Part shown: piece after piece, positions 49,391 through 60,783 of the stretch
Layout of the letters: every line of letters starts with the position of its first letter
How positions within the stretch are numbered: the first letter of the stretch is position 1
Notes under the pieces: generated by a model
What the model was told of the DNA's origin: nothing
What the model saw: only the letters and a program-made list of their open reading frames with translations
The model's database searches: none
Assembly: GCA_903913215.1 (NCBI GenBank)
Contig: CAIWKE010000002.1
Location: 62,001-126,000, forward strand
Direction of reading: 5' to 3'
DNA: 64,000 bases
From: an uncultured Holophagaceae bacterium
GTDB taxonomy: Bacteria > Acidobacteriota > Holophagae > Holophagales > Holophagaceae
Position numbers and translations under genes: made by a program

Positions 49391-50650
49391 ATGAGCCGAC
49401 GTCCGCGCATCGCCATCAGCCTGGGGGATCCGTGCGGCATTGGGCCTGAACTGCTCCTGCGCAGCCTCTCCTCCATCCAACCTTGGACAGACATGGTGGT
49501 GGTGGGGAGCCGGGCCGGCGTCGACCTGCTGGAGGGCCTGCCGGGAGCCAAGGCCAGCTGGCGCTGGGCGGAAGCAGGTCCCCAGGTGCCCCACGACTTC
49601 ACGGGCAAGGCTTACAACCTTCAGATCCTGTCCATGGGAACCAGCCCTGGCCAGGTTCTGGCGGAAGCCCTCTGGCTGGATCCCACCCCTGAGATCACCC
49701 GGGAGCACCTGAAGCTGGGCGAAGGCACCGCCACATCAGGCCAAGCCACGGTGGAGGCTATCCGCGTGGCGGCCCTGCTCACCATGGATGGCCGAACTGA
49801 TGCCCTGGTCACCCTGCCCATGGCCAAGGCTGCGGCACACCTCGCGGGCTACGATATCCCCGGCCACACGGAATTCCTCCAGGAGCTCTCAGGTGCGCCC
49901 ATCACCCGCATGGCCTTCGTCAGCCCCCGCTTGAACGTGGTGCTGCACACGGTGCACCAGAGCCTGCGTTCCGTGGTGGAGAACCTGGACATGCAGGCCG
50001 TGGCTGAAACCCTGGCCTTCTCTGCCGATCGCTTCATCCAGCTCACGGGGAAACTGGATCTGCGGGTGGCCCTTTGCGCCATGAATCCCCATGGGGGTGA
50101 AGGCGGCGCCTTTGGCAAGGAGGAGGGCCTCCTGGACGAGGCCATCACCATGGCGGAGGCCTCCTTCCTGGACTTTCCCGCAGATCAGGAAGGCCCCTTC
50201 CCCGCCTCCTTGTCCCCCTTCCGACCAGGGCCCCCACCCCAGGGTTGGACCGTGTTTCCACCCGAGGACATGCCGAAGCACCGGACGCCAGGGCACCGGG
50301 GTGTGGAAGTGGTCTCCACCCACGCTCAGGGGCAGGAAGCCCACCCGACTCCACTCTTCTTCGGCCCCCTGCCCTCGGACAGCGTCTTCCAGCGGGCCGC
50401 CCGCGGTGAGTTCGACCTGGTGGTGGCCCTCTACCATGATCAGGGCCTCATCCCAGTAAAACTGCTGGAGCCCACGCGCGCCGTGAACCTCACCCTGGGG
50501 CTGCCCTTCATCCGCACCAGTCCCGACCACGGCACTGCCTTCGACAAGGCAGGTTTGTGGATCGCGGACGCGCAGAATTTCCTTGAGGCCACGGCACTGG
50601 CAGTGCGGTTGGCAGGAAGGGTGAGGCACGCGGCCGACGTCAGGCGCTAA
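49391..50650 (+). CDS. pdxA: 4-hydroxythreonine-4-phosphate dehydrogenase, with an insertion
   Basis: A pyridoxine-synthesis enzyme that oxidises 4-phosphohydroxy-L-threonine. The 419-residue protein has SLGDPCGIGPEL, PMAKAAAHLAGYDIPGHTEFL with the metal His, CAMNPHGGEGG, ALYHDQGLIPVKLL and RTSPDHGTAFD. It is ~90 residues longer than the usual ~330, and the extra part sits between residues ~255 and ~330 (a Pro/His-rich segment, PPPQGWTVFPPEDMPKHRTPGHRG). GAGGG precedes the ATG. It lies between hfq and glmU in the same direction. Confidence 0.9.
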   Translation: MSRRPRIAISLGDPCGIGPELLLRSLSSIQPWTDMVVVGSRAGVDLLEGLPGAKASWRWAEAGPQVPHDFTGKAYNLQILSMGTSPGQVLAEALWLDPTPEITREHLKLGEGTATSGQATVEAIRVAALLTMDGRTDALVTLPMAKAAAHLAGYDIPGHTEFLQELSGAPITRMAFVSPRLNVVLHTVHQSLRSVVENLDMQAVAETLAFSADRFIQLTGKLDLRVALCAMNPHGGEGGAFGKEEGLLDEAITMAEASFLDFPADQEGPFPASLSPFRPGPPPQGWTVFPPEDMPKHRTPGHRGVEVVSTHAQGQEAHPTPLFFGPLPSDSVFQRAARGEFDLVVALYHDQGLIPVKLLEPTRAVNLTLGLPFIRTSPDHGTAFDKAGLWIADAQNFLEATALAVRLAGRVRHAADVRR

Positions 50651-56868: not shown

Positions 56869-58545
56869 GTGGTCAGGGTAGGCCCCATAAGTAGGGCAGG
56901 TGAATATTGTCGCTCGGTGAAGTTTTCGCTTGACGGTTCCAGACACTGGACCAAGTCCAAGCCATCGAGCCGCTTCCGCCCCACCACGCTATCCGGAAAG
57001 ATCCTCCTGCTCGTATTGGCCCCCCTCGGGGTGGTTTTACTGGGTGCCCTCCTGGGCTTGATGCCGGTTTTCGAGCGCTCGTTCATCGAGTCCAGGAAGG
57101 AATACCTGAAGCACCTTTCTGAAACCGCCTACGGCGTCCTCGAGTCCCAGGAGGCCCTGGCAGCGCAGGGCCTCTTCAGCCCGGAAGAGGCCCAGAAACG
57201 GGCCGTGAGCATCATCAAGCGCATCCGCTTCGGGAAGACAGGCTATTTCTACGTATTCACCCGAGACCTGCACATCGTCACGGTGCCCATCAAGCCCGAG
57301 ATGGAAGGCAAGCTGGTGGACACCTCCAAGGATGGTTCTGGCCAGTTCCTCTATGTGAACCTCAATACGCTGGGCCGGAGCCCCGAGGGCGGCTTCCTGG
57401 ACTTCGTGTTCGCCAAGCCTGGCGAGTCGGGCCTCTTCCCAAAACTGGGCTACGTGAAGTGCTTTGAACCCTGGGGCTGGAACATCGGTACAGGCGTCTA
57501 CCTGGATGATGTGCAAACCCAGCTCCGAGCCTATGGCCTTGGCATCGTGGGCGGACTGCTTGTGCTCTCCTGCATCATCTTCCTGGTGGTGCGCGCCGTC
57601 ACCCTCCGCATGACCCGACCGCTGGAGGCGCTGGTCCGCGGGCTCCAGAGCAGCGACCTGACCCGGGAGATCCACATTGAGTCGCATGACGAGATCGGGG
57701 CCGCAGCCCAAGCCTTCAGCGCCTACAACTCGGCGCTACATGAGCGGATCATCGAGGTCTCGGGCTACTCGGACCGCGTGGCCTCAGGCAGCACAGAACT
57801 GGCCGCTTCTGCAGATGAGATGACCAGAGCCGTTGAGGAGATCGCCAAAATGAGCGAGAACCTCAAGTCCGCCCGCAGCCATGTGGCCGAAGCCATGGGA
57901 GACCTCTCAGAAAAGGCCGCCCTGGAGGCAAGCCATACCCAGGAGGGGCAGCGGGAGAGTCAGGAAGCAGTCAAGGACACCAACCGCAGCACCGAGGCCG
58001 GCCAGGGGGCCGTAAGCGGCATGGGCGAGATCCAGCGGGTGATGGGGCAGATTGTCCAGGCCGTGCGGGTCATCCAGGACATCGCCCGCCAGACCAACCT
58101 GTTGAGCCTGAACGCGGCCATTGAAGCGGCCAAGGCCGGGGCCCAGGGCAAGGGCTTCGCCGTGGTGGCCGAACAGGTGCGCAAGCTGGCCGAGCGCAGT
58201 CGCGGAGCCGCCCAGGAGATCGAAGCACTGATCCAGCGTATCCAGGAGGCCGTGGCTGGCGGCGTCGAGAGTGTGGGGATCACCATGGACTGCCTGGAGG
58301 CCATCCGTCTGCGCATCACGGAAGTTGCCCGACGCATCGATCAAATCGGCAGCTTCAGCCATGGCTAGGCTGACACCAGCCAGACCGTGACCCGGATGAT
58401 GGATGCGACCCAGGAGGGGCTGGCCCAGAACGCCGCCGCCACCCACCAGCTCTCGGCCACGGTCCATGAGGTCGCCAGCACCTCCGAAGACCTGGCCCAG
58501 GTGGCCGAAGGGCTGAAAAGCCTCGTGCGGTCATTCCAACTCTAA
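56869..58545 (+). pseudogene. Chemoreceptor (single-Cache MCP) interrupted by an in-frame amber codon
   Basis: Two membrane helices (~45-65 and ~225-245) flank a Cache domain ([39 protein letters not shown]), then HAMP and a signalling domain with tip [41 protein letters not shown] at 58366-58368 stops the frame at residue 499, but the same frame continues for 58 more codons (ADTSQTVTRMMDATQEGLAQ...VAEGLKSLVRSFQL) to TAA at 58543-58545, exactly the normal MCP C-terminal end. Without the tail the methylation-helix pairing is incomplete. Start uncertain (GTG 56869 or 56917). Confidence 0.75.
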
Positions 58546-58554
58546 GGGGGCTCC

Positions 58555-60783
58555 ATGAACAACAGACTCAGCATCCACCTGCTCCAGACCCTCCGCCGCC
58601 TCGGGATCCTGGGTTTATTACTGCTGGGACCCGGGACCTACATTCCCCTTCTCCGGGCCGAGGATCCGGGTCATAAGCAGGTGCTGCTGTTGCACAGCTA
58701 CCACCTGGGCTACATCTGGACCTCCAATATCCGGGACGGGGTCATTGAGACCCTGGGCCACTCCAACATCGATGTGGACGTCCGCTCCGAATATCTGGAC
58801 TGGAAGCATTTCCCCACAGAGGAGAACCTCTCTAGACAGTTGGAATCACTCAAGGGCAAGTACCGGAACTTCCCCTTCAACCTGGTCATTACCTCCGACA
58901 ATGCCGCGACGGAGTTCGCCCTGAAGCACCGTGCGGAGTTGTTCCCGGGCGTGCCCATCATCTTCTGCGGCTACAACGGCTATGCCGCCACCCTGATCAA
59001 AGGGCATCGCGGCGTGACAGGAATCGCTGAAAACCTGGACGGCACCGGCACGCTGAATATCGCCCTCCGGCTGCTGCCCGACCTGAAAGAGGTTCTGGTG
59101 GTCACCGATGACACCGAGACCGGCCGAGCCGTGCGGGCGGAAATCGAGGCCTGTACCCTCCAATTCAAGGATCAGTTGCACTTCCGTTTCCTGGGTGAAG
59201 GGCTCGCCACAGAAGAGGTCATTGCCACGGCCAAAGCCGCCGGCCCGGAGGCCTTCCTTCTGATCGGCCCCTTCAACCGGGACCGGCGCGGGCGCTTCTT
59301 GGACCTTTGGGAACTGGCCGTGCTGATGCGGGAACGCGGGGTCAAGGATCCGCTCTTCCACCTTTATGAGGAGGCCATGGGCCATGGTTCCCTTGGCGGC
59401 AGCGTCATGAGTGGGCGCCTGCAGGGAGAAGCTGCCGGTCGCCTGGCCGTACGGATCCTCCTGGGCGAAGATGCTGGCCGGATTCCTGTGGAGGAGCGAC
59501 CCACGGTGCGCAGCATCGTGGACCACCAGGAGATGCAGCACTTCGCCATCCCCATGGCCAATGTGCCGCCGGGCTGCCAGGTGCTCAACCCCCCACCCAG
59601 CTTCTACGAGCGGAATAAAACCCTGGTGCTGTCAGCCCTCGTCCTGTCTCTGCTGGGCATGCTGGTGCTTACCGTGGTCATCCCTTCCCAGTTCCAGAAC
59701 GAGCGCCTCCTGCGGGATAGCGAGGCGCGGCTGCGGTATCTGATCCAGAACATGCCGGTACTCATCTGTGCCTTGGATACGCACGGCTGCGTCATCGTCT
59801 GGAACCGGGCTTGTGAAGCGTGCACGGGACATACGGCACCGGAGGTGGTCAAGCAGACCGCCGCCACCACCGCGGCCTTGCTCCGTAAGGAAGATTACGC
59901 CCGGTTCCTGGGCCTGATCCAGGGAGATGGGATAGAGACCGAAGCCGAGTTGAGCCTCGTGGCCAAGGGCGGCGAACATCGAAGGGTGCGTTGGTTCAGT
60001 GAATCCCGCCTCTACCCTGTTCCCGGTTGGGCGGGCTGGGTGGTGGGTGTGGACGTCACCCGGCAGTTGGAGGCTGAGGAGCACCTTCGCCGCAGCCAGC
60101 GCATGGAGTCCCTCGGGGCCCTGGCGGGAGGCTTGGCGCACGACTTTGGCAACCTGCTGGCCACCATCCTGGCCAGCGCGGACCTGATGGAAGTGGATGA
60201 GGCCACGGACGATTCCCGCCAACGCAACCTGGCCATGATCCGGAAGGTGGCCAGCCGAGGCACCGAACTGGTGAAGCAGATGATGGGCTTCGCCCGGGCC
60301 AAGCCCGAGGGTGCCACCATGGTGAATATTCACACCCTGCTGGGGGAATTGGCTCCCATTCTCGACCGGACCTTTCCGAGGGACATCCGAATCAGCCTGG
60401 AACTTGGGGCGAAGCGACCCGCCATTCTCGGTGAATCAGGCCAGCTCATGCAGATCCTGCTGAACCTGGCCCTGAATGCCCGGGATGCCATGCCGGATGG
60501 GGGTCACCTGAGCTTCTGGACCCAGGATGAGGGCGAGTCACTCCACCTTTGGGTTCAGGACACAGGCATAGGCATGAGTCCTGAAACCCAGCGGCGGATC
60601 TTCGAACCCTTCTTCACGACCAAGGAGGTAGGCAAGGGCACGGGCATGGGCCTGGCGATGGTCTGCATGCTCATCAAGAACCACGTGGGCAGCATTTCCG
60701 TGGACAGCGAGCCAGGCAAGGGCACCTCCTTCCACCTGCGCTTTCCATGTGCCGCATCCACGGAGAGCCTGGTCCCGGTCTAA
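58555..60783 (+). CDS. Sensor histidine kinase with periplasmic ABC-substrate-binding-like domain and PAS
   Basis: A 742-residue membrane kinase. A signal sequence (LGILGLLLLGPGTYIPLL) is followed by a periplasmic domain at ~40-345 (KQVLLLHSYHLGYIWTSNIRDGVIETL; PIIFCGYNGYAA), of the ABC_sub_bind type. A membrane helix (~357-380), a PAS domain (YLIQNMPVLICALDTHGCVIVWN), HisKA with GGLAHDFGNLLATI and HATPase with GKGTGMGLAMV follow. No receiver domain. It starts nine bases after the interrupted chemoreceptor gene, suggesting the two once acted together. Confidence 0.87.
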   Translation: MNNRLSIHLLQTLRRLGILGLLLLGPGTYIPLLRAEDPGHKQVLLLHSYHLGYIWTSNIRDGVIETLGHSNIDVDVRSEYLDWKHFPTEENLSRQLESLKGKYRNFPFNLVITSDNAATEFALKHRAELFPGVPIIFCGYNGYAATLIKGHRGVTGIAENLDGTGTLNIALRLLPDLKEVLVVTDDTETGRAVRAEIEACTLQFKDQLHFRFLGEGLATEEVIATAKAAGPEAFLLIGPFNRDRRGRFLDLWELAVLMRERGVKDPLFHLYEEAMGHGSLGGSVMSGRLQGEAAGRLAVRILLGEDAGRIPVEERPTVRSIVDHQEMQHFAIPMANVPPGCQVLNPPPSFYERNKTLVLSALVLSLLGMLVLTVVIPSQFQNERLLRDSEARLRYLIQNMPVLICALDTHGCVIVWNRACEACTGHTAPEVVKQTAATTAALLRKEDYARFLGLIQGDGIETEAELSLVAKGGEHRRVRWFSESRLYPVPGWAGWVVGVDVTRQLEAEEHLRRSQRMESLGALAGGLAHDFGNLLATILASADLMEVDEATDDSRQRNLAMIRKVASRGTELVKQMMGFARAKPEGATMVNIHTLLGELAPILDRTFPRDIRISLELGAKRPAILGESGQLMQILLNLALNARDAMPDGGHLSFWTQDEGESLHLWVQDTGIGMSPETQRRIFEPFFTTKEVGKGTGMGLAMVCMLIKNHVGSISVDSEPGKGTSFHLRFPCAASTESLVPV

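Follow-up and report, generated by a model that had tools for sequence, protein, structure and literature searches.

An in-frame TAG near the end of a Holophagaceae chemoreceptor gene, probably a very recent nonsense mutation

Introduction

In an uncultured Holophagaceae bacterium, a chemoreceptor gene is interrupted by an in-frame TAG close to its end, and this raises the question of whether the gene has very recently been broken, whether a base in the assembly is wrong, or whether the codon is read through. The gene lies in a 64,000-nucleotide stretch of contig CAIWKE010000002.1 (assembly GCA_903913215.1), the whole of which we call the window. A sequence-only reading of the window had named these three options without ordering them. 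Each finds some support below, and the evidence ranks a recent nonsense mutation first, a base error second and functional readthrough a distant third.

Results

Layout of the interrupted gene

By direct reading of the window, the TAG at 58366-58368 interrupts a gene for a single-Cache methyl-accepting chemotaxis (MCP) receptor on the plus strand (Table 1). The frame, opened by a GTG at 56869, continues beyond the TAG for 58 sense codons to a TAA at 58543-58545, which is nine bases from the ATG of the next gene at 58555. The earlier claims that the TAG splits the gene and that the tail ends right before its neighbour are thus confirmed. GTG 56917 is most likely the start, and probably to be preferred over GTG 56869. 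These two GTGs are the only common start codons in the receptor frame near the motif TLSGKILL, there is no ATG in this frame upstream of the first transmembrane segment, and the starts of related receptors fall slightly upstream of the motif aligned with TLSGKILL. A scan for promoters and terminators gave nothing of note.

Table 1. Features at the interrupted locus (window coordinates)
Feature	Coordinates	Strand	Remarks
Chemoreceptor head	56917..58365	+	483 codons from GTG 56917; alternative start GTG 56869
In-frame TAG	58366..58368	+	Relatives: Gln 22/24, Glu 2/24
Tail in the same frame: final 58 residues of the MCP signalling domain, plus TAA	58369..58545	+	
Next gene, sensor histidine kinase (PAS, HisKA, HATPase_c)	58555..60783	+	Outside the lesion

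The head consists, in order, of a short cytoplasmic start, a first transmembrane helix, a single Cache sensor, a second transmembrane helix, a weak HAMP domain and a signalling hairpin with a conserved tip. In a profile search, sCache_2 matched with an E-value of 1.1e-34 (120 bits); the HAMP match is weak (20.7 bits against a cut-off of 25), and the membrane helices were called by eye. The head alone exceeds the Pfam cut-off for MCPsignal (E 1.6e-31, 109.9 bits) and reaches position 148 of the 172 profile positions. The read-through frame scores 110.4 bits and reaches position 169, with one TAG inside the match. The tail moreover aligns residue for residue with related receptors, with an identity of 67-72% to the closest group and 60% to a more distant Holophagaceae receptor (L031, see below), so the residues after the TAG are indeed the normal end of an MCP signalling domain, as had been proposed. 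The receptor shares its domain order (with HAMP below its cut-off), hairpin tip and C-terminal tail with single-Cache MCPs (sCache_2, HAMP and MCPsignal), but differs from them in having a TAG 58 codons before its end; no single open frame encodes the whole hairpin together with its two methylation-helix regions. We rejected the idea that head and tail are two separate genes, since the tail by itself matches no Pfam family and corresponds to the normal receptor end in 24/24 relatives.

The codon at the TAG site in related receptors

We compared the site in 24 distinct aligned relatives, 23 of them from the same genus (comparison group of 46 genomes) and one from a named Holophagaceae MAG (L031). 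This MAG supplied the best homologue with a name, which makes Holophagaceae likely as the family; Geothrix as the genus would be a guess. The set combines two alignments. The first comprises 20 same-genus loci and L031, and has glutamine (CAG) in 19/21 and glutamate (GAG) in 2/21. The second comprises the 11 closest receptors among the matches listed, all with glutamine (10 CAG, 1 CAA); eight of these are shared with the first alignment and three are new. Nine of at least 29 relative loci were left out before counting, namely L019, which is cut by a contig end, and L023-L030, which are shorter matches or other receptors. From the search that yielded L031, only this one of seven loci was used, the other six being from other phyla and 28-34% identical.

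Altogether, the TAG column holds CAG in 21, CAA in one and GAG in two of the 24 relatives, in agreement with the earlier expectation of a sense codon such as CAG. No internal in-frame stop occurs in any of the 24 aligned relatives; stop tallies from the homologue searches refer to the matches listed. TAG is one C-to-T step away from the family codon; with glutamine in 22 of the relatives and an internal stop in none, this single substitution accounts for the lesion. A compensated frameshift near the stop is ruled out by the alignment, which is gap-free around the TAG.

A difference of one base from the family codon, flanked by an equally conserved head and tail, is also what would be seen if the real gene were intact and the TAG were either an error of one base in sequencing, assembly or consensus calling, or a minority variant chosen in an assembly that is a draft or derives from a metagenome. 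With 41 contigs and a completeness of about 95%, the assembly is a draft, which is in favour of such an error. We nevertheless consider an error rather unlikely, because the assembly does not look noisy: among 324 domain matches in the genome there is just one other internal stop, inside a decayed fragment (see below), and a scan of the window found no other interrupted gene. In this six-frame coding-potential scan of all 64 kb, only the receptor stop was flanked by coding-like sequence and survived inspection. Two further stops were rejected as interrupted genes on judgement by eye: the stop at 2196 is the boundary between two genes that we take to be cydA/cydB-like, and the stop at 49889 is an antisense shadow.

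Conservation of the tail and age of the stop

In the alignment with 11 relatives, the window receptor keeps 31/35 family-invariant columns in the tail and 65/73 in the 110 columns that precede the stop; as a leave-one-out control, L031 keeps 35/43 and 73/94, respectively. The tail is thus as conserved as the stretch before the stop, which means that it has not decayed so far, and the earlier impression of a tail without other damage holds. We saw no second lesion in the gene, both head and tail being otherwise readable. Relaxed constraint after the TAG is likewise not visible, and would not be expected anyway if the lesion is very young. The head is 60-64% identical to same-genus receptors and to the receptor of the Holophagaceae MAG. 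The nearest homologue is 64% identical; among the matches listed, identity does not exceed 63% along the full length or 69% in the last 113 residues. Judging from these alignments, the tail appears to have shared the constraint on the head for nearly all of the gene's separate history. However, equal conservation of head and tail does not discriminate between a young mutation, a base error and readthrough, as an intact tail is equally expected under the latter two.

Is TAG recoded in this genome?

Amber readthrough and stop codon recoding, be it by near-cognate glutamine tRNAs or by pyrrolysine, likewise show an in-frame TAG with conserved coding sequence behind it. We therefore considered whether the TAG is real and usefully read through, by a near-cognate Gln-tRNA or an amber suppressor that escaped detection, such that some full-length receptor is made. 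The tail, fully conserved in frame, would fit such readthrough, and E. coli reporters are reported to show TAG readthrough with insertion of Tyr, Gln and Lys (PMC11126739).

Unlike in the known recoding systems, however, neither a tRNA with a CTA anticodon nor PylS was detected here, release factor RF1 is present, and the relatives lack the TAG. Among the 30 frames of at least 250 codons in the window, TAG is the commonest stop (TAG 14, TGA 12, TAA 4), so that general suppression would extend many genes. The gene for RF1 (prfA) is found in the genome above the profile cut-off. Furthermore, domain families are clean: matches without an internal stop number 24/25 for MCPsignal, 108/108 for HATPase_c, 60/60 for ABC_tran and 130/131 for Response_reg, or 322/324 for the four families pooled, both exceptions being TAG. 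We rejected genome-wide reassignment of TAG on these three grounds (the use of stops, RF1 and the clean families), and a pyrrolysine system because the genome (95% complete) has no match to TIGR02367 (PylS).

The second TAG occurs in a Response_reg match near a contig end (G000:C5:1713-1964, also L089:1713-1964). This receiver fragment is without the first 21 profile positions, has more stops nearby and, as read from the alignment by eye, has its TAG in a column that is tyrosine in the receiver of the downstream kinase. It looks like ordinary decay. Since the site is aromatic rather than glutamine and lies in a decayed fragment, it lends no support to a rule by which TAG is read as glutamine.

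The sequence-only reading had also suggested looking for an amber suppressor tRNA. This search came out negative: none of the 39 tRNAs named by ARAGORN (of 40 tRNA matches) has a CTA anticodon, in a draft list without Asp, Ile and Trp tRNAs. The absence of these three means that the list is incomplete, and the draft could likewise lack a suppressor. The missing tRNAs suggest gaps in the draft, or detection misses. The single match to a CTA-anticodon pattern is tRNA-Arg(tct). ARAGORN made no call for the 40th match (C11:45929, 30.7 bits), in which we found no CTA anticodon by eye. This stretch (L078:200-264; G000:C11:45929-45993) has a tRNA-like 3′ end and is perhaps a tRNA remnant.

The signature of programmed readthrough, a stop kept across related species, is absent from the 24 aligned relatives, so nothing suggests that a programmed stop has been selected for. 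The base directly 3′ of the TAG is G; U in this position is reported to reduce readthrough (PMC5289835). Overall, we judge useful readthrough to be improbable. The more specific proposal, that this UAG is read as glutamine at an appreciable rate, giving short and full-length receptors in a ratio set by termination efficiency, appears more doubtful still.

Discussion

The reading that we favour, and regard as probable on the sequence comparisons above, is that this chemoreceptor gene was put out of action, or at any rate cut short, by a single nonsense mutation of very recent date. A C-to-T transition would have turned a family-conserved glutamine codon into TAG, at which RF1 would terminate translation (58366). 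The predicted 483-residue product would be without the last 58 residues, which would comprise the end of the descending helix and the second methylation region in the four-helix bundle, and would signal poorly or be degraded. Aligned by phmmer to chain 6s1k_E (methyl-accepting chemotaxis protein I), the stop falls near residue 470, past the hairpin tip; this position is a hand count, and the alignment is weak there. The truncated product would thus keep the hairpin tip but not the C-terminal part of the bundle, where we presume the second methylation helix to lie, and the tail (58369-58545) would correspond to this second methylation-helix region.

Could the shortened receptor itself be functional, as an adaptive truncation? 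In favour of this, the frame still encodes the hairpin tip and about 80 further residues before the stop. However, the descending-helix end, which pairs with the first methylation helix in such receptors, would be lost, and none of the 24 aligned relatives ends at this site. Truncation mutations are reported to be common in bacteria and can be adaptive (PMC9241588). For this receptor, we hold an adaptive truncation to be very improbable, the least probable of the explanations considered.

The favoured reading has a parallel in Campylobacter, for which naturally arising chemoreceptor pseudogenes have been described (PMC6433261): tlp receptor frames that are otherwise readable are likewise broken by small mutations, in genomes with several receptors. 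Among the Campylobacter cases considered, however, indels or larger deletions predominate, and strain comparisons back them, unlike the single TAG of the receptor described here. Our literature search found no paper on the present receptor gene, a statement that applies to that search alone.

The genomic setting bears on how the relatives are to be viewed. Beside the homologous receptors we found none of the window neighbours, except for a distant (29%) ABC ATPase match at one of them. Because the homologues sit in other neighbourhoods, strict orthology to the window receptor is unproven. The receptor (56917-58545) seems to have been moved or separately acquired, its genus homologues having other gene neighbourhoods.

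For annotation, the locus should be marked as one interrupted gene rather than as two genes. If the TAG were read through, the receptor would be unusual and leaky, although nothing that we found points there. Most likely, nothing unusual has happened here: the genome has many chemoreceptor genes, and this one carries a recent nonsense mutation or, failing that, an erroneous base. Besides this gene's own, there are 24 MCPsignal matches in the genome, of which 22 exceed the cut-off; with more than 20 other MCP-domain matches, loss of this receptor is probably tolerated. If real, the stop would thus represent a strain-level loss of one probably redundant chemoreceptor.
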